NCBI GenBank assembly: GCA_002733215.1 | Contig: NVUY01000001.1 | Location: forward strand, 80,060-144,059 | Direction: 5' to 3' | DNA length: 64,000 bases | From: Sulfurovum sp. | GTDB taxonomy: Bacteria; Campylobacterota; Campylobacteria; Campylobacterales; Sulfurovaceae | Shown: positions 15,179 to 26,079 of the stretch, in pieces | Numbering within the stretch: the first letter of the stretch is position 1 | How the letters are laid out: every line of letters starts with the position of its first letter | Translations under genes and position numbers: made by a program | The notes under the pieces: generated by a model | Told to the model about the DNA's origin: nothing | The model's input: only the letters and a program-made list of their open reading frames with translations | Database searches by the model: none

Positions 15179-15373
15179 CTATTTTTTTAACTCATCTACT
15201 TTTTTTTCAATGGCATCACTCACTTTGTCTGCTTTCTCGGAAACAGATTTTTTAATGAGTTCTGCCTCTTTCGCTGTAGCGTCTTTAAGTTTTTCATCCG
15301 TAGATTTCTCTTGACAAGCAGTTGCCATTAGCCCAAAACCTATCACACATAGTGCTGTAAATATTTTTTTCAT
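15179..15373 (-). CDS. Small helical lipoprotein
   Basis: 64 aa from ATG 15373, with GGGAG 7 nt upstream. The signal peptide ends in lipobox ATAC, giving a lipidated Cys near residue 20. The mature part is a Lys/Glu-rich single helix (DATAKEAELIKKSVSEKADKV), like an entericidin- or Lpp-sized peptide. Its start shares one base with the stop of a 25-residue membrane peptide, so it is the last member of the 16427-15179 operon. Function unknown. Confidence 0.7.
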   Translation of the reverse strand: MKKIFTALCVIGFGLMATACQEKSTDEKLKDATAKEAELIKKSVSEKADKVSDAIEKKVDELKK

Positions 15374-15450
15374 TATAGAACTCCCATCCATCTAAGTACT
15401 ACCACGATAACCACAACAGTAAGTGCTGTATATATAAGATTCATTATCAT
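15373..15450 (-). CDS. 25-residue membrane peptide
   Basis: ATG 15450 is preceded by AAGGAG at 5 nt, and the stop overlaps the next start as TAATG. The peptide is almost entirely one hydrophobic helix (LIYTALTVVVIVVVL) with Arg-Trp near the end. The good ribosome site, the exact coupling at the 3' end and the 16-bp spacing from the upstream gene all argue that it is translated. The role is unknown; it may modulate the neighbouring membrane or envelope proteins. Confidence 0.55.
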   Translation of the reverse strand: MIMNLIYTALTVVVIVVVLRWMGVL

Positions 15451-15466
15451 CTCTTCTCCTTTTTAG

Positions 15467-15664
15467 TTAATTTGTTTTACCTTTTCTCTGACGCATCCAA
15501 CCACCTATAGCACCACCAACTGCACCGGAAATGGCAGCAACGGGGTAGTTCATGGCAACATTCATACCTAGCTGACTGGCTATAAAGTTACCAATAAGCA
15601 CAGATATCGCACCAATGATCGCATACTTAGCGACCAAGCCCAATGGGTTTAAAAAATCTAACAT
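15467..15664 (-). CDS. Small glycine-zipper-like membrane protein
   Basis: 65 aa with two hydrophobic segments (VAKYAIIGAISVLIGNFIA and YPVAAISGAVGGAIGGWM) and a basic C-terminus (RQRKGKTN). The Gly-rich second helix resembles GlsB/YeaQ or glycine-zipper proteins, but the match is not strong enough to name it. GGAGG lies 7 nt upstream, and its ATG shares one base with the stop of the PliG-like gene (TAATG), giving tight coupling. Confidence 0.65.
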   Translation of the reverse strand: MLDFLNPLGLVAKYAIIGAISVLIGNFIASQLGMNVAMNYPVAAISGAVGGAIGGWMRQRKGKTN

Positions 15665-16071
15665 TAATCTACCTCCATGTGTAGTGTATAAGGCACAGAT
15701 GTGCCTCTTCTTGCTTCGTTTCGCATAAGAAATACTTGTATAGTGTAGGTACCGCTTTTAGGCAATACACCTGTATACTTTCCCCCCCCCTCAGTTGATC
15801 CGCCGAACATGGCACCGTCACCGGCACCTTTACCTGGTTCAAAAATGTTCATAAAAGCTTTTTTTGACTCTAAAGATACACGCATAGACTGTCCTGCTTT
15901 TGCACCCAGTTTATAGTATACTGTGTCATAGCCTTTAACATGTCCTTTTACCGTAGTACCGCTTGTTCCTTTGTCAAAGTGCACCTGGTGTGTTGTCACT
16001 TTATCTTTTGCCATAGCAGGCACAAAAAGAAGTGCTGCTGTTGCCATAATTGTCATTAATTGTTTTGTCAC
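15664..16071 (-). CDS. Periplasmic PliG-like lysozyme-inhibitor family protein
   Basis: 135 aa with a clear signal peptide cut after AMA. The mature protein follows the PliG (E. coli YcgK) layout: VHFDKGTSGTTVKGHVKGYD, then YYKLGAKAGQSMRVSL, LPKSGTYTIQVFLMRNEARR and a final YTLHMEV. PliG binds goose-type lysozyme. Database entries of this type are often labelled DNA breaking-rejoining protein, which does not suit a secreted beta-sandwich. The start is GTG 16071 with AAGG 7 nt upstream. The location beside other inhibitor and cell-wall genes supports the call; specificity is inferred. Confidence 0.6.
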   Translation of the reverse strand: MTKQLMTIMATAALLFVPAMAKDKVTTHQVHFDKGTSGTTVKGHVKGYDTVYYKLGAKAGQSMRVSLESKKAFMNIFEPGKGAGDGAMFGGSTEGGGKYTGVLPKSGTYTIQVFLMRNEARRGTSVPYTLHMEVD

Positions 16072-16084
16072 TATTCTACCTTAC

Positions 16085-16427
16085 TTAGTATGCCACGTGA
16101 ACATCAAAGAATTTACCTTCAGTATCAAACTCACAAGTATACTTTTTACCAAAGGCAGTTCCTGATGCTTTTGATGCAGGTTTTGCTCCCTGTTCAACGA
16201 CTAGACTACCCATCTGTACATTCATTGGTTTTGTGCCAGCTTTCTCTGCGATCATACCTTTACAATAGTTAATCATCTGACCCTGATTTTGAAATTGTGT
16301 TGGAGCAGGGTTTGCCGCTACTTTGTTATATTTTGATTTTGCAGGTGCATTATACTCTGGTACCTGTACATCCTGTAAAACCGATCAGTGCAAGTCCCAT
16401 AAACGGGAGCATTATTTTTTTAGTCAT
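16085..16427 (-). pseudogene. Lipoprotein gene with a frameshift near the signal peptide
   Basis: ATG 16427 (AAAAGGAAA upstream) opens a lipoprotein signal with lipobox FTGC, but this frame stops after 25 codons (about 16350). One base shift in the TGTACAGGTACC stretch (about 16360-16370) leads into a long open frame VPEYNAPAKSKYNKVAANP, then INYCKGMIAEKAGTKPMNV and KKYTCEFDTEGKFFDVHVAY, ending at 16085. Joined, it is a lipoprotein of about 114 residues. It could be a real frameshift, a phase-variable switch or a sequencing error. It is the first gene of the operon led by the 16470 dyad. Confidence 0.7.
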
Positions 16428-16469
16428 TTTTTTCCTTTTTTATATAAAATGTAACATAGTCTACCTCTA

Positions 16470-16493
16470 AAATGTCTTTGGAATGTGACATTT
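16470..16493. promoter_or_regulatory. 24-bp envelope dyad, copy 1
   Basis: AAATGTC-N10-GACATTT. The dyad lies 43 bp upstream of the lipoprotein start at 16427. An AT-rich box TTTATATAAAA (16439-16449) stands 21 bp away on the gene side, the same spacing as at copy 2. It is likely an activator or repressor site for the 16427-15179 operon. The space 16494-16645 shows only a weak ATGTGG/CCACAT stem. Confidence 0.6.
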
Positions 16494-16645
16494 TCAGACC
16501 TTTGATCTATGTGGTTGGAACTGGCAGTTTATTAGATCTCCTCAACTGTTTATTCTTCAGCCACATTGTGCTCCTTCTACATAGATATTACATCCAGAGA
16601 GAAGCAGAACAAACATCCACAAAGGCAGAAAAAGGTTCAAACTTC

Positions 16646-16972
16646 TTATCTCTGCTGACAATCAAATGCCGGTGAATTTACGATAGAGGCATAACGACCC
16701 TCCGATGTTCTCACAGTAATACACTGTCCGCTTCTACTATGTTTCCAATAGGTATATGAATCTGTATCAGATTTTTCTGTTTTCACATAGACAAAGCCTC
16801 TCTCTTCAAGACTTATTTCGCCATCACGACCTTTGGCACCTACCAAGTCTTTCACATACGGTGTAACCGATGGGGCATTTCCATTTGAAGAAGGATATGC
16901 CCCTCCATCTGTACATCCAACCAAAGCCAAAACTGCCACTCCTGCGAGTGACATTACAATACTATTTTTCAT
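16646..16972 (-). CDS. Small lipoprotein with C-terminal conserved domain
   Basis: 108 aa. The signal peptide ends in lipobox LVGC. The mature region carries an ordered domain (LEERGFVYVKTEKSDTDSY, YWKHSRSGQCITVRTSEGRY, SIVNSPAFDCQ) with two Cys that could form a disulfide. I recall similar sequences in other proteobacteria but know no assigned function. AAAGGAG precedes the ATG. It follows the SurA-like gene after 35 bp and may end the 21915-16646 operon. Confidence 0.65.
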   Translation of the reverse strand: MKNSIVMSLAGVAVLALVGCTDGGAYPSSNGNAPSVTPYVKDLVGAKGRDGEISLEERGFVYVKTEKSDTDSYTYWKHSRSGQCITVRTSEGRYASIVNSPAFDCQQR

Positions 16973-17007
16973 CTTTTCTCCTTTTTATATATAAATGTTG
17001 GGCACTT

Positions 17008-17727
17008 CTAATAAGTTTTATTAAAAGCCTCTTTTGCTTCTTTGCTGCCTTCTTTGTAGAAAGAGTGTTTACTCTCATCAGTAAAATATTCCCAAAATGG
17101 TGCTTCAAAACTTTTATCGATGATCTTAAATGATCCGTTCTTCTCTTGTTCTTTCAGAAATTTATGCAGTGCATCATAAGGTTCCGGTCCCATCTGTTGG
17201 GCAATGATACGCCCGCCATATTGTTCATAGAGTGCTTTATTGATCATGTTTTGTTTTATGAATGTTTTAGCTACAGTTTGCTTGTCTTTGAGAAGCCCTT
17301 TGGGATCCTTTGCTTTTTCTTTATCTTCCTGAATCTCCATGTTATGAAGACTTTTCAGAACATTGAGACTTGACTGAAGATTTTCTCTTTCTTCAGCAGA
17401 AAGCGATCCTGCCTTGAGTTTTTCTTCTGTCTCTAGCATTTTTACATCTCTTTCTTTACGGTCTTTAGCCATAAAGGTATCTAAGTTGGCAATATAAAGA
17501 TCAACATCTTTCTGGCTCACTTCTATCTTATGCTCTTTTGCATACTTTTCCAAAAGTTTTTGACCGATCACAGCCTGCATGAGATTCGCATCTTTGGTTC
17601 TGATCTCCATACCCAATACTTCTGCCACAAGTGGATCTTCTGCTGCACCATAACTCTCTGCGGCAGAAAGTTGCCCTGTTGAGAAAGTAAATATCGTCAA
17701 GATACACCATTTCATTAATTTTTTCAT
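17008..17727 (-). CDS. Periplasmic SurA-N-like chaperone domain protein
   Basis: 239 aa with a signal peptide (cleaved near LSA-AES). The N-terminal part (VAEVLGMEIRTKDANLMQAVIGQKLLEKYAKEHKIEVSQKDVDLYI) resembles the SurA/PrsA N-terminal chaperone domain. No parvulin isomerase domain follows; the rest is a charged helical segment (ERENLQSSLNVLKSLHNME) and a mixed C-terminus. It is likely a periplasmic holdase for envelope proteins. AAGGAT lies 8 nt ahead of the ATG, and it belongs to the cell-wall gene cluster. Confidence 0.6.
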   Translation of the reverse strand: MKKLMKWCILTIFTFSTGQLSAAESYGAAEDPLVAEVLGMEIRTKDANLMQAVIGQKLLEKYAKEHKIEVSQKDVDLYIANLDTFMAKDRKERDVKMLETEEKLKAGSLSAEERENLQSSLNVLKSLHNMEIQEDKEKAKDPKGLLKDKQTVAKTFIKQNMINKALYEQYGGRIIAQQMGPEPYDALHKFLKEQEKNGSFKIIDKSFEAPFWEYFTDESKHSFYKEGSKEAKEAFNKTY

Positions 17728-17741
17728 GTTTATTATCCTTA

Positions 17742-17993
17742 TTATTTAGAGTCAGAAGAGGCAACACTCTTGTCAACACTTGCAATATCAATTTTCTTCT
17801 CATAATCTTTAGAAACTAAAGAGATATGACTTGCATTGTGATCCATAATAATTTCACAGTTTTTATCATGTTTTAACACCAATGTATAAGTATCTGAGTT
17901 GTTTTTAACACTTTCTATGCGAATGTCACAAGGGGCAGCAGCATTTGCATACACTGCGCAAACTGTTGCAAGTAAAAAAGAAAAATATTTCAT
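17742..17993 (-). CDS. Small secreted protein
   Basis: 83 aa. A signal peptide (FLLATVCAVYANA-AAP) precedes a beta-rich 60-residue domain with two Cys (PCDIRIESVKNNSDTYTLVL, KHDKNCEIIMDH), probably disulfide-linked in the periplasm. It starts 3 bp after the LprI-PliI stop, so it is coupled to it. No family recognised. The size and disulfide fit a small inhibitor or binding protein, which is only a guess from context. Confidence 0.6.
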   Translation of the reverse strand: MKYFSFLLATVCAVYANAAAPCDIRIESVKNNSDTYTLVLKHDKNCEIIMDHNASHISLVSKDYEKKIDIASVDKSVASSDSK

Positions 17994-17996
17994 CTC

Positions 17997-18863
17997 TTAT
18001 TTGAAGTCTGTGCTTTTCACAAGTTTAAGTACCCAGCCTGCTTCACCAGCTTTTAACTTATACTCCAACTGACGTGTACCGCCTGTAGCCTTTGCATTAC
18101 TGTCATCCTTTTTATAGATAGGGAAACGTCTAGCCAAAGTATGTTCAACAAGAGAAAACATATCATGTCCCATGTAGCCTTGACTACGTTCTTTATCTTC
18201 TTCTAAAGGAGGTAAATAGATGGCTGTCATAGATTTATTACGATTAGAAGCATACGCTACCAAAGAGCCATAAGAACCTGACCCCGCAGAGGCGATATAG
18301 ACATAGACTTCAGGAAAACCATCTTTATTTAGGTCTTCTATTTCTGCATCTACTACACGTCCGTCAATCTCTTTGCTAACGGTTTCATTTACTATAGTGA
18401 GTCCATGAGGTTTTATGTAGAGTTGACGCAATGAACCTTCTCCTGTTGTCACAATATCAAAAGTAATACCCTGTAAAGATAACGTTTTTTGGAAAGTATA
18501 TTTTTCAACTGCTGTCTTCTTAGCACCCAAAGCATATTTTCCTTTCAACTCATCTATACGAAGATGATACGCATCTTCCATACACTGTGCTTCATTCTCT
18601 GCTTTCCAGCAGTCATTACGTCCTTTGATCCAGCCTCTTTGATGTGTTTTAAGCATATCTTCTTTAGAAGCTTTTTTTAAAGCTTGATGATACACTTTGG
18701 ACAGTTCTCTATCGAGATCCATCAATGCATCAGAGCTACAGATGATTCCCTCTGCACTGTCTTTCTTTACCTTGGAGCAGTCAAAACTGGGTTGATTGGC
18801 ACACAGAGGTACCAGTGCTAATGAGAGAACAAAAAATATATTTTGTATCTGTGTGATCTTCAT
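17997..18863 (-). CDS. Two-domain lysozyme inhibitor: LprI/DUF1311 plus PliI
   Basis: 288 aa with a signal peptide. Residues about 25-110 are the LprI/DUF1311 domain (FDCSKVKKDSAEGIICSSD, ALMDLDRELSKVYHQAL, QRGWIKGRNDCW). Residues about 120-285 match PliI, the periplasmic inhibitor of invertebrate-type lysozyme (LSLQGITFDIVT, AEIEDLNKDGFPEVYVYI, SAGSGSYGSLVAYASN, IYLPPL, GYMGHDMFSLVEHTLARRFP); the SGSY stretch corresponds to the inhibitory loop. The fusion would give one secreted protein with two inhibitor modules. Adjacent L,D-transpeptidases place it in a cell-wall protection cluster. Confidence 0.8.
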   Translation of the reverse strand: MKITQIQNIFFVLSLALVPLCANQPSFDCSKVKKDSAEGIICSSDALMDLDRELSKVYHQALKKASKEDMLKTHQRGWIKGRNDCWKAENEAQCMEDAYHLRIDELKGKYALGAKKTAVEKYTFQKTLSLQGITFDIVTTGEGSLRQLYIKPHGLTIVNETVSKEIDGRVVDAEIEDLNKDGFPEVYVYIASAGSGSYGSLVAYASNRNKSMTAIYLPPLEEDKERSQGYMGHDMFSLVEHTLARRFPIYKKDDSNAKATGGTRQLEYKLKAGEAGWVLKLVKSTDFK

Positions 18864-18874
18864 GCTACGATCCT

Positions 18875-19486
18875 TTAGTATGATTTAACATCTTGTTTAA
18901 ACTGTTCTAACTCTTGCTTTAAAAACTGTCCGTAATGCCCTCTCATGATCACCACTTTCGTATGTGTATCAACCCACTTGAACATGGCCTCAACATCTTT
19001 TCTCCCTACATGGATACAACCGTGAGAAAGTGCTCTTGTATTACCCAGGTGTAATGCATGCCCCTGATTGGTAAACAGCATTTCAAAATCCATATTATTC
19101 ACCCCGTTCGCTGAAGGATGTGCTCCTGACATGTGGTAACGTCTTTTTAAGATAATAGGAAAAATGCCGTTTGGTGTTTCATGTCCGCCATACGCACCCG
19201 ATGATATCTTGTCTACCCACCAGATCGTTCCGTCTTCATCTACCGCGTACGATTTACCTTCACTTCCCGGTTCACTTACAGAAACAACAACAAACTTTTT
19301 GCCTTTCAGGTTTACTATTTTTGTATTACCGTGTTTGTCTTTTACTTCAAATTCTGTGGCACTTAATGGGGTAATAGTTTTTGCCTGATGTTTAAATTTG
19401 GAAACAACCACTTCTCTTTTCTCATTTGCCTGTGCTACATTTACAAATACAAAAGCAGCCAGTACCATTGTCAATATTTTTGTCAT
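18875..19486 (-). CDS. L,D-transpeptidase (YkuD family), short
   Basis: 203 aa from ATG 19486, preceded by GGAAGAG; ATG 19504 is also possible. A signal peptide is followed by a YkuD domain with the catalytic motif SHGCIHVGRKD (Cys near residue 157) and the upstream His (GHALHLGNT). It acts in the periplasm on murein tetrapeptides, forming 3-3 crosslinks or anchoring proteins. It comes directly after the larger Ldt gene. Two Ldts in tandem with lysozyme inhibitors suggest response to cell-wall attack. Confidence 0.88.
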   Translation of the reverse strand: MTKILTMVLAAFVFVNVAQANEKREVVVSKFKHQAKTITPLSATEFEVKDKHGNTKIVNLKGKKFVVVSVSEPGSEGKSYAVDEDGTIWWVDKISSGAYGGHETPNGIFPIILKRRYHMSGAHPSANGVNNMDFEMLFTNQGHALHLGNTRALSHGCIHVGRKDVEAMFKWVDTHTKVVIMRGHYGQFLKQELEQFKQDVKSY

Positions 19487-19503
19487 TTCTCTTCCTTTTT
19501 TCA

Positions 19504-21612
19504 TTAATATTTACTCCCGGTCAACTGCATTTTGTCATATCCGTAAATATCGTCTCTAAAGTTTACAGTGCCATCACTTGCGACCCATGTCGTTAAGTAT
19601 ATCATATCAACGGGGATCGAATGAGAGAGTCTCAATGGTGTTTTTTTATTGTGCTCCAATGTTTTTTGCGCTTTTTCAAAATCTATTTTAGGATCCATCT
19701 TTGAAAATGTTTCAAGTAATTGAACGGGTTGGTGTAACCTAACACAACCATGACTTAAAGATCTCTTATCTTTAGAAAAGAGATTTTTTTGATTGGTATC
19801 ATGCATATAGACAGAATACTTGTTCGGAAAAAGATATTTGATCTTACCTAAAGCATTATGCACTCCCGGAGACTGCATAAATTTATACGGAGGCAGTTTA
19901 CGTCCATACTTGTGCCAGTTGACATTATGCGGGTTGACCAAAGGAGAATGTTCAGAGTATCCGGTATGGATCTCTATTTTCTTGCTCTTGGTATAGTTTC
20001 TGTTCTTTTTTAGTTTGGGGATCATCTCACCTCGTATGATACTCGCAGGTATTCTCCAGTACGGGTTAAGAACGATCGTACGTACCCTGTTGTAAAATAT
20101 CGGTGTATTGTGCCCTTTTCTCCCCACGATCACACGCATCGTTTCGATAAGCTCTTCTTTATCATAAACATACATCGTATATCCCGGGATATTGACCCAG
20201 ATCTGATAGCGGTCATGGCTGCGTTTGACCCATTTCATACGATCGAGGTTCAGTTTGATACGGGCGACTTTTTCTTCAGCACTTTCCATAAGAGCCTTAC
20301 GTGTCATCGGCCCGATATATCCTTCTGCTGTCAAACCGTGTCTGGTCTGAAACTTTTTGACCGCCTCCAAAAGACAGCTGTCATAACGTGTTGTAGTGTT
20401 TTTGTCAGAACAAGGCTGATAGTCGTCTTCCATGGTCAGTCTTTCCCGTATGAGAGGGATCACAGCATTTTTCATACCCGGTTCCATGTCTCTAAACTCA
20501 GGAAGAACCTGCCAACCTCCCGCAGCTGCCATGCCCTGATATTTTTCCAGTGCCGCAAGCAATTTGTCATAAAGAGGAAAAAGAGGTTTCGCCTCTTTAA
20601 AAGCATGATCCAGTGAGCCGTGGCTGATCGCTTCTATCAGCAGGGATTCGGGAGAAGAGAGTATGTTGTGTACCACCCAGTCAGCATTTCTCTTCTTTCT
20701 CAACTTCGCCTGAAATGCCTTCCAGTCTATATTTCCATATAGCGCATGAGACATATAGTCCTGGTAGAGTTGGGCGATTTCAAATTCATAAGCAACGATC
20801 TTTTGCTTCTCTTCAGGTATCTCGATGGCTTTTAGTTTTTGGTAACCTTGGTACGCAGAAGAGTTTCTGTCCAGTGTAATGTCACTCTCTATGTGTTTGA
20901 AAAGATCTTTGGTATAAGAAGAAAAACCTGCCTGAGTGATCCAGACCGGCTGAAAATTAAGCAATTCATACATGGCTTTGAGTCTCTCTTTACCATCCTT
21001 GCTGGTCAGCATGGTAATGCTCTCCATATCCATCTTCTCACTCTCTTTGATGATGGTCATATTCGCATCCATCATCGGGGTACGATAAATGATCCTCTCT
21101 TCAGAAATGGCATTAAGGGCATCGATCAAAGACTTCTCTTTGAGTGCATGCTGCAACAAAGAAAGGGCTGTATATTTACTCTTTCTCTCTTTAAGGATAT
21201 CGCCGATGTGCTTGACATAAAGCTTCATCAGACCAAGCTCTATTTCTACTTTATCTGCCAAGGCATCAGAGTTAAAGATCTTCTCCTCATTAGGCACAAG
21301 TTTTTTGTATGTTGTAACAAGCTCTTTATGCAGTCCTTTTTTAAAGTCTGCTTTGAGCTCATGCACCAGCAGTTCGGCATACTGTGACAGATAATCTTTA
21401 TCTACCCATACCGGCTGATAATCGATCGCCCGGTAAAGCTCCTGTACTTTTTTAGAAGAAGAGGTGACGGACTTTTCGATCTCTGCAGACATCTGTGCAT
21501 TGAACTCTTGCTGTTCCTCCTGATAGATCTCCTGATAATCCAATACGGATGCATGCACTGCACCCATACTCAGACAGATCGACAATACAATACTTTTAAA
21601 TTTTAATTTCAT
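19504..21612 (-). CDS. LdtD/YcbB-like L,D-transpeptidase
   Basis: 702 aa with a signal peptide. The N-terminal half holds scaffold helices, including two related segments (ELYRAIDYQPVWVDKDYLSQY and AMYELLNFQPVWITQAGFSSY). A peptidoglycan-binding motif (CLLEAVKKFQTRHGLTAEGYIG) precedes the YkuD domain, whose catalytic motif is SHGCVRL with Cys623. This is the layout of E. coli LdtD (YcbB), which forms 3-3 crosslinks under envelope stress. It lies 6 bp after the small lipoprotein at 21619-21915, so it is in the operon led by dyad copy 2. Confidence 0.9.
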   Translation of the reverse strand: MKLKFKSIVLSICLSMGAVHASVLDYQEIYQEEQQEFNAQMSAEIEKSVTSSSKKVQELYRAIDYQPVWVDKDYLSQYAELLVHELKADFKKGLHKELVTTYKKLVPNEEKIFNSDALADKVEIELGLMKLYVKHIGDILKERKSKYTALSLLQHALKEKSLIDALNAISEERIIYRTPMMDANMTIIKESEKMDMESITMLTSKDGKERLKAMYELLNFQPVWITQAGFSSYTKDLFKHIESDITLDRNSSAYQGYQKLKAIEIPEEKQKIVAYEFEIAQLYQDYMSHALYGNIDWKAFQAKLRKKRNADWVVHNILSSPESLLIEAISHGSLDHAFKEAKPLFPLYDKLLAALEKYQGMAAAGGWQVLPEFRDMEPGMKNAVIPLIRERLTMEDDYQPCSDKNTTTRYDSCLLEAVKKFQTRHGLTAEGYIGPMTRKALMESAEEKVARIKLNLDRMKWVKRSHDRYQIWVNIPGYTMYVYDKEELIETMRVIVGRKGHNTPIFYNRVRTIVLNPYWRIPASIIRGEMIPKLKKNRNYTKSKKIEIHTGYSEHSPLVNPHNVNWHKYGRKLPPYKFMQSPGVHNALGKIKYLFPNKYSVYMHDTNQKNLFSKDKRSLSHGCVRLHQPVQLLETFSKMDPKIDFEKAQKTLEHNKKTPLRLSHSIPVDMIYLTTWVASDGTVNFRDDIYGYDKMQLTGSKY

Positions 21613-21618
21613 ACTATT

Positions 21619-21915
21619 CTATCTCCCTTTACACTGAAGTCGGCCGTCTTCCCAGCCGATCTTATAACTTTGATTGTTATTGAATTTATTATGATTTTTA
21701 GTATAGTCGCCATCTGCTGTTCGACAGGCATCTCTCACACCCTGTTTAAAATCAGCATTTCTGTCAGAACCAAAATTAACACCATTATAGATGTAGGCAT
21801 CTCCGCCTGATGGCATGGAGGGGGAAGAGGTAGATAGAGCAGAGGGAGTACAGGCAGAGAGTAAAAATCCTGTAACTATGGCTGTAGTTGCGATAAGTGT
21901 TTTTGTTTGTTTCAT
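21619..21915 (-). CDS. Small lipoprotein heading the Ldt operon
   Basis: 98 aa with lipobox LLSAC. The mature part is Ser/Pro-rich, then YIYNGVNFGSDRNADFKQGV, RDACRTADGDY and SYKIGWEDGRLQCKGR, with two Cys likely bridged. This C-terminal pattern occurs in small lipoproteins of other proteobacteria without known function. AAAAGG lies 8 nt upstream within a tandem 13-bp repeat. It is the first gene after dyad copy 2. Confidence 0.65.
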   Translation of the reverse strand: MKQTKTLIATTAIVTGFLLSACTPSALSTSSPSMPSGGDAYIYNGVNFGSDRNADFKQGVRDACRTADGDYTKNHNKFNNNQSYKIGWEDGRLQCKGR

Positions 21916-21916
21916 T

Positions 21917-21955
21917 AAATGTCCTTTTAAAATGTCCTTTTAAAATGTCTTTAAA
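21917..21955. repeat. Tandem 13-bp repeat in the ribosome-site region
   Basis: Units beginning AAATGTC stand at 21917, 21930 and 21943 (two full AAATGTCCTTTTA units and a partial third). Read on the gene strand each full unit carries an AAAAGGACATTT ribosome-site-like segment. AAATGTC is also the half-site of the 24-bp dyads, so the repeat may have a regulatory as well as a translational role. Confidence 0.55.
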
Positions 21956-22041
21956 TTATATCAAATATTCTTCTCTCAAAACTAAAAACAGTATAGTTTT
22001 TTTCATCTTTTTTATATAAAACATGACAAAGTATAGCTATG

Positions 22042-22065
22042 AAATGTCTGCAAAATGCGACATTT
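22042..22065. promoter_or_regulatory. 24-bp envelope dyad, copy 2
   Basis: AAATGTC-N10-GACATTT, 127 bp upstream of the 21915 start. TTTATATAAAA (22011-22021) lies 21 bp away on the gene side, as at copy 1. It probably controls the 21915-16646 operon with both L,D-transpeptidases and the lysozyme inhibitor. Confidence 0.6.
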
Positions 22066-22140
22066 ACAGAATTGATTTTGTCATAATGAAGAAGAAAGGG
22101 GTTGATGCTGAAAAATCAGAGCATTCAATAAACAGGCAGA

Positions 22141-22213
22141 GGAACCTCAAACTTGTTTGAGGACATGTGAGAGTTTGATATTTTGTTTTTTGCCTAAACA
22201 AGTTTAGGGTTCC
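22141..22213. repeat. REP-like inverted pair of palindromes
   Basis: Left unit 22141-22162 contains CCTCAAAC-TT-GTTTGAGG; right unit 22193-22213 contains CCTAAAC-AA-GTTTAGG. The right unit is a near copy of the left in reverse orientation, so the pair forms a cruciform like a bacterial interspersed mosaic element. It occupies the gene-free stretch 21956-22335. The rest of that stretch holds dyad copy 2 and a TCATCG-AGA-CGATGA stem near 22270 downstream of the 22336 gene. Confidence 0.55.
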
Positions 22214-22335
22214 AAAGAGTGTCTTCCTAACTAGATTTAAATCCAAAAAGAAAGTGCTGAGGCAGACATTTCATCGAGACGATGAGAACGAGAAAAAAAA
22301 TTACTTTCTTAAAAGTGTGATACTCAGAGCTGCTC

Positions 22336-22596
22336 TTACTCTTCTGTTTCTTTTTGCGATGAGACATAAAGTACCAGACCCAATATGATCATAACAACAA
22401 GAGAACGCTCAAGATGCATATCCATGGTTGATACAGAGGTATCATTGCCTGCCATTACAGCATTAAGTGCTTGCATTTTATACTCTCCTAAAACAATGCT
22501 GTCAAGTATCGCAGAAACAGAATGTGTCAGTCCGTTCACTGCAAACAGAAGCAGTGAACCCACAATGAAGAAGATTCCAATGGTTCTTCTATACAT
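22336..22596 (-). CDS. Small two-helix membrane protein
   Basis: 86 aa. Helices lie at about residues 5-22 (IGIFFIVGSLLLFAVNGL) and 66-82 (LVVMIILGLVLYVSS), with a short loop between that would face the periplasm. No clear ribosome site precedes ATG 22596, so the start is uncertain. Dyad copy 3 lies 110 bp upstream, which links it to the envelope cluster. No family recognised. Confidence 0.55.
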   Translation of the reverse strand: MYRRTIGIFFIVGSLLLFAVNGLTHSVSAILDSIVLGEYKMQALNAVMAGNDTSVSTMDMHLERSLVVMIILGLVLYVSSQKETEE

Positions 22597-22705
22597 ACAA
22601 ACTGTCTTTGGATGGGCTATTAAGCCCTCTTAAGATTTGAACCATCTTTATTCTCCCCTGCCTATCTGTCACGAAGAAACATAGCAATATTAAACTATAT
22701 CTCTA

Positions 22706-22729
22706 AAATGTCTTCAAAATGCGACATTT
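22706..22729. promoter_or_regulatory. 24-bp envelope dyad, copy 3
   Basis: AAATGTC-N10-GACATTT, upstream of the small membrane protein gene 22596-22336. The spacer (TTCAAAATGC) is nearly that of copy 2. The TTTATATAAAA box of copies 1 and 2 is not conserved here, but an adjacent ACTATATCTC segment resembles theirs. Confidence 0.55.
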
Positions 22730-22769: not shown

Positions 22770-23969
22770 TTAATATAAAAATCCAAATAGCCACAAGGGG
22801 ATTTTGTTCCCATAACCTACTTCAATTTCATCTTGCACTACAAAACTATTTGTTTCATCTTTTATCTGTTTAAAACTTTTATTTTTCCCACCAATCTCAA
22901 ATAAATACTTTTTATCAACTAAAAAATCACCGTTCTTTACTACATTTAGCTTGTATTTTAAAGAGACTTGATTTGCAAAAAAAGTCTCTCTGATACTTCC
23001 TTTTTCAGCACTGTCACAGTAAGCATACAGCAAATTTGTATTGTTTAAATATATTTTTGCCGGTTTAGATATTTTTTTAACACCACTCACATTTTCATCT
23101 ACCAACAGTAACATTTGACCATCATGAAGGTAGGAGATATAGTCATATAATTTCACCCTGCTAATCTCTGCTGATGCTGCAATTTTTGTGTAGTTTACTT
23201 CAAATGGTTTTGATTCACAAACTACTTCGAGTAGTTTTTTTAACTTATATGTATATTTCTGCTCTATTAAACCCAAGGAAGTTAAATCTAAATCTATCGT
23301 TAAGTTGATAGTATTTAAAAGACTTTGATAATAAGATGTCTGTTTATCAAAATAGAAAGGATAATACCCTGTTTTAAGGTACTCTTTAAACTCAGAGAGT
23401 ATATTGATTTTTTCTGTTTCTGCTGTAAGGTTTGTGATGATTTTAGTATGCTCACTCAGTAAACTATCAATAGAATGACTTTGTAATTTTAATGCAAACT
23501 TTAGTTCCACATACTCTCTAAACGAAAATCCATTCAAATTATAAAGCGTCACTCTTCTACTCAAATCACTTTTAGCATTGAGTATAGATGTTGCGCTGCT
23601 GCCTGTAAAAAGAACATTTATATCATATAAATCGTAGATTGATTTAAGATAGGAACTAAAATCATTATAGCGATGAACTTCATCAAGAAGAAGATACTCT
23701 CCTCCATCATTGACAAACTCTTCTACTACCTCAAGTAAGTCAACCCCTGTTAAAAATGGATAATCAAGTGAAATATAAAGTGCTTTTTTATTCGCTTCTT
23801 CCAGCTCTTTTAAGTACTGAAACAAAAGTGTCGTTTTTCCAACACCTCTAGCACCAAAAATTGCTACCATTTTATCAGAATAATCTATCTCCTCATAAAG
23901 ATATCTTCTATACTCTATCAACTGTAATTTTTTTAATCGTTCCTGGTATTTGTAAAGTTTCTCTAACAT
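22770..23969 (-). CDS. AAA-family ATPase with DUF4143-type C-terminal domain
   Basis: 399 aa. Walker A GARGVGKTT (about residue 39) and Walker B EYLLLDEVHR (about 92) lie in the N-terminal AAA domain, with sensor-1 FTGSSAT. The C-terminal half contains a winged-helix-like region (YTKIAASAEISRVKLYDYISYL) and a PD-(D/E)XK-like beta segment (YLFEIGGKNKS). Such ATPases are common accessory genes in bacteria and archaea with unclear roles. It is the first gene after two palindromic operators and lies between the envelope cluster and decayed two-component genes, so recent transfer is plausible. Confidence 0.8.
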   Translation of the reverse strand: MLEKLYKYQERLKKLQLIEYRRYLYEEIDYSDKMVAIFGARGVGKTTLLFQYLKELEEANKKALYISLDYPFLTGVDLLEVVEEFVNDGGEYLLLDEVHRYNDFSSYLKSIYDLYDINVLFTGSSATSILNAKSDLSRRVTLYNLNGFSFREYVELKFALKLQSHSIDSLLSEHTKIITNLTAETEKINILSEFKEYLKTGYYPFYFDKQTSYYQSLLNTINLTIDLDLTSLGLIEQKYTYKLKKLLEVVCESKPFEVNYTKIAASAEISRVKLYDYISYLHDGQMLLLVDENVSGVKKISKPAKIYLNNTNLLYAYCDSAEKGSIRETFFANQVSLKYKLNVVKNGDFLVDKKYLFEIGGKNKSFKQIKDETNSFVVQDEIEVGYGNKIPLWLFGFLY

Positions 23970-23982
23970 TTTTTACCTCTAG

Positions 23983-24050
23983 TGTAAATGTATATGATCG
24001 TTTACAATTATACTCTTTAGGGCTTTGTAAATGCTTATATACATTTACAA
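23983..24050 (-). promoter_or_regulatory. Twin palindromic operators around the ATPase promoter
   Basis: TGTAAA-N12-TTTACA lies at 23983-24006 and TTGTAAATG-N8-CATTTACAA at 24025-24050. On the minus strand a TATAAT box (24012-24007) sits between them. The second palindrome also encodes the last residues and stop of the truncated response regulator. The arrangement suggests strong repression of the ATPase gene. Confidence 0.55.
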
Positions 24051-24685
24051 AATTGGCATTTAATTTGATCGTTTTCTCTCAGTGCTGTGGCAGAGTCAGT
24101 TTCATGCATGATCTTCCTGTTAAATCGGGAAGCAAGTTTTGTCAGTTTCTTGTCATGGGAGGCATCCGGCATTTCATCATGCCATACATGGTAGATCAAA
24201 GTATTGCGTATAAAGTACTCTCCGGGCTTCCTGCAGAGAAGCTGTAGAAGTAATGTCTCTTTTATGGTAAGTTTGACCTGTTCCTGTCTGTACTGCAGAC
24301 TCTCATTCATCGCATTCCAAAACAGTTCTTCTTTGAGTTGCATCATACCCTTTTCCTCTATGCGCTGTATAAACTTCAGCATGGTATTTTGTAAAAGCCT
24401 GGTGTTGACGGGCTTAAGAAGATATGCTTCAAGTTTAAGCGGTACAGCACGTAACAGTTTTTCGACTTCTGAGTGGGCGGTCAGCATGATGATGGGGATC
24501 TCTGCATCCTCTTTCCGTACAGCCCCGGCAACCTCCAGTCCATCCATCTTCGGCATAGTAACATCCAGAAGCAACACATCAGGTTTTTTCTCATAATACA
24601 GGTCTAATGCTTCCCTGCCGTCTTTTGCAGTATAGACTTCATCAAAATAATTTTTGAGCACAAAAGCATAATGAGACCACTGCAC
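24035..24685 (-). pseudogene. Response regulator lacking its N-terminus
   Basis: Up to 216 aa. The receiver domain keeps the phospho-acceptor block PDVLLLDVTMPKMDGLEV, the TAH and LLKPV motifs, and a C-terminal winged helix (LTIKETLLLQLLCRKPGEY, LTKLASRFNRKI). The first strand and the paired acidic residues that bind Mg are missing: the frame enters at HYAFVLKNYF, normally the first helix. The C-terminus ends in an atypical QIKCQFCKCI encoded by a palindromic operator. It overlaps the truncated sensor gene by 82 bp in another frame. A deletion that fused the two genes explains this best; it is probably inactive. Confidence 0.65.
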
Positions 24686-25935
24686 AATAATCCGGACTGT
24701 ATACTGTCAGACTCTATGAATTTTATATCAGGATACTTCTTGAAAATATCGGCTGTATACCCATAATCCTTTACCAAAGCTATCTTTTTTTCTTTGATAT
24801 GGTTTAGATCCTCTATATAGTGATGATCTTTTCTTGTCACTATCACAAGGGGGTTTTGAAGATAGGTATCAATAGGTTTATAATTTTCTCTCAACAGCAC
24901 ATCTGCTGCATCACCTGAGATAATATCAACTTGTTGTCTCTTTGAAAGTTCCAAAGTTTCCGGCCAGTTTTTTGTGATCAGTTTTTCGAACCTGACATTG
25001 AGTCTGTTTTCAATGATCTCAATATGTTCAGCGATGATGCCTATATATTTACCACTCTTGTCAAAAGCTTCAAAAGGCAGCCAGTTTGGATCACCTGTAT
25101 AGCTCACAGCATTCTCTTTCAAATACGCTTTTTCCTCTACTGATAAATCAATATCCACTCTTTCTGTATGCGTCAAAAACCACTTATTTTGAAGTTCCAA
25201 CAATTTATTTTTGCCTATGTGTTTTAAAGCTTTATTTATAATACTGACGGCTAAAGGAAACTTTTTATTGACTGCAAATACCAGATCAAGTGTAGCATCC
25301 AAAGGCACAGCCAGTTTAAGATATGGCGCACCCAATACACCACTTGTATACAAAAGTGAGCTTCTGGCGAACATTGCATCCGCTTCACCAATGACTACAC
25401 TGTGTATGACATCTTTCACATTATCGTATTCTAAAATAATTGAATTCTTAAATGCTCTTGCAGCTTTTTTATTGCTTACGATATGTTTGGCGATGGCTAT
25501 CTTCTTTCCATCCAGGTCTTGAAGTGTTTTTATAGAGTTATTATCGATATGTGTCATCACCATGATCGGTACAGAAGTATACACATTGGAAAAGTTAAGA
25601 TATTTACCTCTCTCTTTTGTAACTATGCTTGTACTGAGCCCATCGATGACACTCCTTTTTGCCTCATCTTGCATCTGTTTCCAATTTCCGACTTTTAAGC
25701 TAAACTTCATCCCTGTTAAATGATTGATCTCATGGAGAACATCAGCATCCAGTCCTACAACCTCTCCATCGTTGTCAACGATCACATAAGGGCCAAACTC
25801 ATCACTGGTACCCAAGACGATATTTGGATGATCCCCGATAAAAGCCAACTCCTCTTGCGTCAGATCAAGATCTACTGTTTTTGCCTGAACAAGTGCAAAG
25901 TATAACAATACGGTAATCAATAGTTTTTTATGCAT
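24604..25935 (-). pseudogene. Sensor with two periplasmic binding-protein domains, truncated
   Basis: 443 aa from ATG 25935 (GGAAG upstream). A signal peptide is followed by two SBP_bac_3-like domains: about 25-255 (TQEELAFIGDHPNIVLG, DNDGEVVGLDADVLHEI) and about 270-415 (LSVEEKAYLKENAVSYTGDPNWLPF). BvgS-type sensors carry such pairs before a membrane helix and a histidine kinase. Here the second domain stops at IESDSIQSG and runs out of frame into response-regulator sequence, so the membrane and kinase parts are lost. The remaining protein could at most be secreted. Confidence 0.65.
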
Positions 25936-26079
25936 TATGATCTTCCATGTTTTATTATGACATGGTTTTCTTACAAGCTCACTAAATAATTGAAGTCTAC
26001 GCATCAGGGAAATCGATGTACGACGCTATACACAACCCTAAGTACTTAATGGCAGCACTTAAAGCAATAAGCAGATAAA

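Follow-up and report, generated by a model that had tools for sequence, protein, structure and literature searches.

Sensor kinases of the BvgS/EvgS type carry two tandem periplasmic SBP_bac_3 domains ahead of their kinase domains, and the regulator DccR of the DccRS system of Campylobacter jejuni reportedly binds the motif wTTCACN6TTCACw. The OmpR-type response regulator RR2 of Sulfurospirillum binds the direct repeat CTATW-N17-CTATW overlapping the -35 region; in one promoter, the CTATA units are spaced by six bases (PMC7755780). E. coli pliG is under the control of Zur (PMC4219657). Here we describe three promoter sites of Sulfurovum sp., located in a stretch of 64,000 nucleotides (contig NVUY01000001.1 of assembly GCA_002733215.1, positions 80,060 to 144,059 of the forward strand), which is referred to as the window. 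The sites lie in a block of genes at 15179-22729. They are probably activator boxes of an OmpR-family response regulator, belonging to a lineage-specific two-component regulon of wall defence, and they seem to have outlasted the regulator in this assembly.

The original prediction for this locus was built on the dyad AAATGTC-N10-GACATTT, which it placed ahead of three apparent same-strand transcription units. The dyad is indeed exact at 16470, 22042 and 22706, and the genes of the block all lie on the minus strand in three groups, each starting downstream of a site. In the draft assembly of the own genome (G000; 2,647,264 bases, 47 contigs, 85% complete) these are the sole exact copies, and all three fall inside 6.3 kb, where 0.03-0.04 copies would be expected genome-wide under a first-order Markov model (probability of at least three, ~1e-5). 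The copies are thus not scattered, as the prediction had required. With up to two mismatches, the dyad occurs at 26 places including the exact three, and its reversed pattern at 39; the copies with one or two mismatches were therefore set aside as background and do not form a wider set. Ten dyad-like loci (seven own, three from relatives) were viewed as sequence, the best own one, on contig 6, being located directly after an open reading frame (ORF) that by eye resembles a DNA glycosylase. Among 78 genomes of the same genus, only the own genome and three others (four in total) have an exact dyad, and those of the three relatives were dropped as they lie inside one conserved coding gene, LysR-type by eye. 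Upstream of the relatives' homologues of lp98, mp86, the transpeptidases and LprI/PliI (genes listed below), the inverted repeats share no common dyad by eye. The 24-bp dyad, expected to recur in relatives, is thus not kept there; AAATGTC, direct repeats and a -10-like hexamer are kept instead. The shared element TTTATATAAAA is present at two copies (16439-16449 and 22011-22021) as predicted, separated from the dyad by 20 bases in both cases rather than by 21. It was rejected as a -10 element, being found at two of the three sites and not seen in the 12 bases downstream of the relatives' boxes, beyond which no further search was made.

Aligned on the gene strand, the three sites read AAATGTC, RCATTYYRNAG, ACATTTYADAG, one base and TAKAST. 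The two 11-mers after AAATGTC form a direct repeat directly upstream of the -10-like hexamer, and we interpret the box as an inverted half-site followed by two direct ones:

Box 3, 22694..22729, minus strand: AAATGTC + GCATTTTGAAG + ACATTTTAGAG + A + TATAGT, upstream of mp86.
Box 2, 22030..22065, minus strand: AAATGTC + GCATTTTGCAG + ACATTTCATAG + C + TATACT, upstream of the lp98-LDT702-LDT209-LprI/PliI-p83-SurA-lp108 group.
Box 1, 16458..16493, minus strand: AAATGTC + ACATTCCAAAG + ACATTTTAGAG + G + TAGACT, upstream of a lipoprotein gene, PliG, a 65-aa membrane protein and lp70.

Boxes 2 and 1 sit in intergenic gaps of 420 and 218 bases, respectively. In 22 boxes from genomes other than G000, the two 11-mers share on average 7.27 of 11 positions (permuted control, 3.38), and direct repeats exceed permuted controls in every box group, although all these boxes were chosen by matrices that include the repeat positions. 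One base beyond the repeats, all 25 boxes compared have a hexamer of the form TAnnnT; they were picked by matrices or patterns including the -10 hexamer, and weaker boxes (G063, G055, G066, G235) were left out. The boxes thus present tandem direct half-sites of ~10-11 bp near -35, as sites of OmpR/PhoB-type response regulators do. Terminator and sigma-70 scans gave about as many matches as in shuffled sequence, and no Rfam family was found in the window at gathering scores.

The layout recurs in relatives. A weight matrix built from the three sites was run over 500,038 bases, made up of the window plus 36 stretches (34 from relatives). It returned three further strong matches (21.5-23.6; the next scored 17.2), which share a single 5.4-kb contig of G060 with genes for homologues of LprI, mp86, lp98 and LDT209. 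One of them has a perfect repeat (AGATTTCACAG twice) and none has the dyad. The pattern RATTTCACAGNNATTTCACAGNTA, with at most three mismatches, occurs at 26 places in 17 of the 78 genomes (reversed control, 18). Six were judged promoter sites of this layout (three in G060, two in G032 and one in G072); the other 20 were not taken up, most being in long open frames and a few (G061, G065, G033) left undecided. A second pattern, AAATGTCRCATTTTRNAGAYNTTNNNNAGNTATA, derived from the G000 and G010 boxes, was found at 11 places in four of ten genomes (three in G000, four in G010, three in G032 and one in G066) and nowhere in its reversed control. The G032 places include two new ones, flanked by a SurA-like gene and an MCRA gene, an arrangement shared with G010.

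The boxes also track a regulator gene. An OmpR-family regulator is encoded directly before a box in G060 and G072, and its group (at least 49% identity to the G072 regulator) has 18 members in 16 of the 78 genomes. Regulators from other genomes were examined in their flanks (300 bp on each side, same strand) with a matrix derived from ten boxes of G000, G060, G032 and G072. The flanks of 15 orthologous regulators, which come from related species and are not independent, scored between 20.7 and -4.3, with at least 16.5 in six and at least 6 in 11. Nine control response regulators never exceeded 3.5, none reaching 6 (Mann-Whitney P 0.001); this control is small, since 24 of 33 candidate loci were dropped by the ORF and flank filter. 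A retrained matrix, circular for the boxes used in building it, gave 15 boxes in ten of 18 regulator stretches and none in the reversed sequence of the same 267 kb. Seven of these are placed directly before the regulator, three before kinase or SurA-kinase genes, three directly after the regulator and two elsewhere in G010. In 591 kb of other stretches, it found three matches of at least 14 beyond the three G060 boxes, two in coding genes and one on contig 13 of the own genome. In G235, which belongs to another genus of the family, AAATGTC and a box lie ~60 bp before the regulator. Regulator and boxes are thus genetically linked across species.

The relatives' boxes precede genes for the regulator, the kinase, SurA-like proteins, lipoproteins and L,D-transpeptidases, and in G060 one precedes a YcgJ-family gene. 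The order in G072 is kinase pieces, regulator, box, lipoprotein, 220-aa protein, lp98 and LDT209. In G010, the closest intact relative found, it is box, SurA-like gene, kinase, regulator, box, a 216-aa protein (outer-membrane type by eye) and box, with a fourth, divergent box before an MCRA (oleate-hydratase-type) gene. The G010 regulator exceeds the Pfam cut-offs for Response_reg (92.4 bits) and Trans_reg_C (33.8 bits). Its kinase (1029 aa) contains two SBP_bac_3, two PAS, HisKA and HATPase_c domains; no receiver or Hpt domain was detected at E 0.01 in the G010 and G060 kinases. At E 1e-45, close relatives of the G010 regulator occur in three of 298 sampled genomes of the order, own included, with only nine candidates scored per genome, and one database name places the regulator family in Sulfurovum (Sulfurovum sp. 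CS9, which has an intact regulator with 82% identity to the G010 one). An MCRA-family gene under a box, divergent from the SurA-like gene, is present in both G010 and G032 (L218 5771-7421, L247 961-2611; Pfam tested on the G010 copy). In G003 (L220 10546-12288), a member of the regulator group is paired with a MASE1 sensor kinase instead of the double solute-binding sensor, a sensor swap.

Half-sites and recognition helices, the DNA-reading helices of the winged helix-turn-helix fold, pair in part. The half-site GCATTTT goes with the helix stretch SHDKKLTKL in G000 and G010, and AGATTTC with SHDNKLHQL in G060 and G072. Boxes of the ATATTT type have mixed stretches (SHNNKLIQL in G056, RHNKKLTQL in G049, G047 and G022), and one G060 box starts with ATAATTC, outside the simple pairing. 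The reading covers 18 regulators, of which G003, G023 (two) and the first one of G053 show the tail only. The pairing is suggestive of co-variation and is confounded with descent.

In the window itself, the regulator and the kinase, which the original prediction had not noticed, are both cut down, next to an ATPase gene:

24604..26004, minus strand: sensor kinase remnant that corresponds to residues 1-417 of the G010 kinase with 71% identity and has two SBP_bac_3 stretches; PAS, HisKA and HATPase are absent.
24035..24685, minus strand: truncated OmpR-family response regulator, 71% identical to residues 18-218 of the G010 regulator (BLASTP), with Pfam Response_reg and Trans_reg_C in part.
22770..23969, minus strand: AAA_14 ATPase gene (DUF4143 just under the cut-off), separating the regulator remnant from box 3; the stretches compared from relatives contain nothing closely similar.

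The window regulator is without its first 17 residues, including the acidic pair, and without the end of the wing (a tail of the LIENSYxxGYR type), which is kept in 17 of 17 other regulators of the group. An imperfect 25-bp inverted repeat at 23983-24049 lies between the regulator remnant and the ATPase gene, where the wing is replaced. Since the kinase core, the regulator N-terminus and the wing are absent, the boxes appear orphaned of an intact cognate regulator in this assembly, and they appear to have outlasted it. The nearest other regulator in the assembly is 42% identical to the G072 regulator and has a different helix.

The block that follows the boxes encodes the following genes:

22336..22596, minus strand: mp86, 86 aa, membrane protein by eye, with a homologue downstream of a box in G060.
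21619..21915, minus strand: lp98, small lipoprotein, also downstream of a box in G060 and G072.
19504..21612, minus strand: L,D-transpeptidase LDT702, 702 aa, with Scaffold, PG_binding_1 and YkuD domains.
18875..19504, minus strand: L,D-transpeptidase LDT209, 209 aa, YkuD; in G060 and G072 it likewise follows a box.
17997..18863, minus strand: LprI-PliI fusion, 288 aa, LprI over the Pfam cut-off.
17742..17993, minus strand: p83, matching the N-terminal part of a 201-aa G010 NlpC/P60 protein; the hydrolase part is absent.
17008..17727, minus strand: SurA-like protein, 239 aa, weak match to SurA_N_3 (23.2 vs 27.2 bits), 75% identical to the box-carrying gene ahead of the G010 kinase.
16646..16972, minus strand: lp108, lipoprotein.
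16085..16427, minus strand: lipoprotein gene after box 1 with an interrupted frame; the signal peptide starting at 16427 stops at 16350 and the mature part (p63) is in another frame.
15664..16071, minus strand: PliG homologue, 135 aa, g-type lysozyme inhibitor, with phmmer matches to 4dzg, 4dy5 and 4dy3.
15467..15664, minus strand: 65-aa membrane protein, BofA-like, match under the cut-off.
15179..15391, minus strand: lp70, small lipoprotein.

Gaps inside the large group range from -1 to 35 bases. Both L,D-transpeptidases exceed the YkuD cut-off and carry the SHGC catalytic motif. PliG is homologous to the solved 4dzg (E 8e-25 over residues 23-133) and has no convincing Pfam match. The PliI part of the fusion stays under the curated Pfam cut-off (25.4 vs 27 bits) and matches the solved PliI 3od9 at E 0.0015; it is a likely homologue, and a candidate member, of the PliI inhibitors. 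Lipoboxes were found in three ORFs, the interrupted gene after box 1 being a fourth lipoprotein gene. The predicted gene content therefore stands for the LprI-PliI fusion, PliG, the two transpeptidases and the lipoproteins, with weak calls for PliI and SurA. LprI domains need not inhibit lysozyme, as Salmonella ScwA does not (PMC7933661). Tandem 13-base units (AAATGTCCTTTTA) at 21914-21955 span the ribosome-binding site and start of lp98, and an 18-bp inverted repeat (89%) at 22141-22213, between box 2 and mp86, might act as terminator or attenuator for the mp86 unit. Contig 31 of the own genome (L087 15441-17552) encodes a second full-length L,D-transpeptidase of 703 aa, 54% identical to the 702-aa one; this contig has no box match of at least 14.

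Several observations weigh against an OmpR-type regulon orphaned in this genome. Four of the 15 orthologous regulators score below 3 with the ten-box matrix, the retrained matrix finding a box for the second G053 regulator and for G055. Eight of 18 regulator stretches have no box by the retrained matrix, three of which hold only a more distant paralogue. The same matrix matches at 20.3 and 17.2 inside coding genes of G057 and G010, so scores below ~20 are not safe alone and the weaker boxes are weakened. The single G066 place of AAATGTCRCATTTTRNAGAYNTTNNNNAGNTATA lies 11 bases before a start codon, which leaves too little space for the layout, and is apparently a chance match. G025, G017 and G008 have transpeptidase or PliI genes and no AAATGTCRCATTTTRNAGAYNTTNNNNAGNTATA-class box. 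Of the 36 first stretches, nearly all of which surround these genes and many of which end at contig ends, a single one (G060) yielded promoter boxes with the ten-box matrix; box control of transpeptidase and PliI genes is thus not universal. G032 has both half-site classes and yet no regulator at E 1e-25. Finally, the truncation is read from a draft assembly, and the codon-position substitution in the remnants is like that of intact neighbours, with no relaxed constraint, so the remnants may be recent, still used, or an assembly fault.

The last of these options, in which the genome would possess an undamaged kinase-regulator pair and the truncation would stem from faulty assembly or binning, is the alternative that survives best, and we regard it as unlikely though well worth keeping in view. 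The 85% completeness of the draft genome and the codon-position pattern would fit it. The junction, however, falls within open frames on a contig of 203 kb, and the regulator has a further alteration at its other end, next to the ATPase gene. Compared with the G060 kinase core, the best-matching other core of the assembly shows 38% identity and the G010 core 54%, and the protein cluster represented by the truncated regulator has two members on three contigs at 90% clustering.

Alternatively, the dyad could serve as operator for a repressor that is encoded elsewhere and binds palindromes as a dimer (for example, one of TetR- or MarR-like type), the direct repeat being incidental. The arms are perfect at all three sites of this genome, and arm complementarity exceeds permuted controls in all box groups (mean 4.55 of 7 in the 22 boxes outside G000; permuted, 2.14). 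A palindromic operator would be expected to keep both arms in related promoters. The left arm AAATGTC is kept in nine of nine boxes of G000, G010 and G032 contig 184, but the exact right arm GACATTT occurs only in the three G000 boxes, with 5-6 of 7 positions in same-class G010 and G032 boxes and 3-6 of 7 elsewhere, whereas the 11-bp repeats and the -10 register persist. As the boxes also track the gene of an OmpR-type regulator, we consider such a repressor improbable.

The restriction of the exact right arm to G000 might also mean that the block, once its own regulator was gone, came under a different response regulator of this genome with a GACATTT half-site. One example is the OmpR-type regulator on contig 13 (L178 8016-8876), which is followed by TGACATTTTTC-TGACATTTTTA-TAT-TATACT. 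Its helix stretch, however, differs from that of the window regulator, three boxes are few and the pattern may be drift. We give the contig 13 takeover a slim chance. At the contig 13 locus, the box-like layout is followed by a c-di-GMP-I-GGC riboswitch (RF03167) and a 1373-aa gene, by eye a repeat-rich surface protein, which together represent a different system. That the boxes are recently duplicated promoter DNA without shared regulation would suit boxes 2 and 3, which share 73% over 64 nt, but is highly improbable given that the flanks of box 1 differ and the same positions are kept in other species.

We thus return to the activator boxes of an OmpR-family response regulator. At each site, the regulator would occupy both 11-bp half-sites of the -35 region in head-to-tail order, make an additional, inverted contact with AAATGTC upstream, and assist RNA polymerase at the -10 hexamer, one base further on. 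It would be paired with the sensor kinase that carries two solute-binding domains in the periplasm. The relatives have boxes ahead of the genes of the system itself and of envelope genes, namely those for a SurA-like protein, small lipoproteins and an L,D-transpeptidase. The regulon is most likely wall-protective, because the boxes here precede LprI-PliI, PliG, two L,D-transpeptidases and lipoproteins, to which the NlpC/P60 fragment p83 can be added. The regulon idea of the original prediction is therefore likely right, as a small regulon at three promoters with wall-defence content, its dyad operator being only partly so. More tentatively, and with considerable doubt, a system of the Sulfurovum lineage may sense wall damage or lysozyme and drive LprI/PliI/PliG, L,D-transpeptidases and lipoproteins via the three-part box, as a Campylobacterota counterpart of Rcs, with half-sites co-varying with the recognition helix; the regulon orphaned here may be undergoing capture by another regulator.

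A previously unexplained dyad hereby becomes a testable regulator-box-target set in Campylobacterota, one that word searches of a limited literature did not find in print. If the signal is wall damage, the system would be an independent solution to the task of Rcs in enterobacteria. The species with matched regulators and boxes offer a natural series for following the joint change of half-sites and their OmpR-type regulator, and the fate of a regulon after its regulator is cut down may be visible in the window.

Among the described systems, the G010 kinase resembles BvgS/EvgS in its tandem SBP_bac_3 domains and differs in that no receiver or Hpt was found and in its OmpR-type partner. The motif wTTCACN6TTCACw fits one of four G060 boxes (TTTCACAGAGATTTCACA) and not the window boxes. 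DccRS itself is similar in having an OmpR-type regulator and a handful of periplasmic and membrane proteins (PMC9449129). The Rcs phosphorelay of E. coli shares the proposed envelope signalling, raising the lysozyme inhibitors Ivy and MliC on peptidoglycan damage (PMC10139938), whereas here an SBP_bac_3 sensor is combined with an OmpR-type regulator and the inhibitors LprI, PliI and PliG are of other families. Zur likewise acts on pliG in E. coli, but is a zinc-responsive repressor with an inverted-repeat site (PMC4219657). RR2 of Sulfurospirillum also combines direct repeats overlapping -35 with an OmpR-type regulator encoded beside its targets, but with a 22-bp period (CTATA at 11-bp steps in one promoter) (PMC7755780). 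Here, the period is 11 bp, the half-site, targets and sensor are different and a conserved inverted arm, AAATGTC, lies upstream. The box layout itself is of an already known type, and the truncated regulator is the unusual twist.

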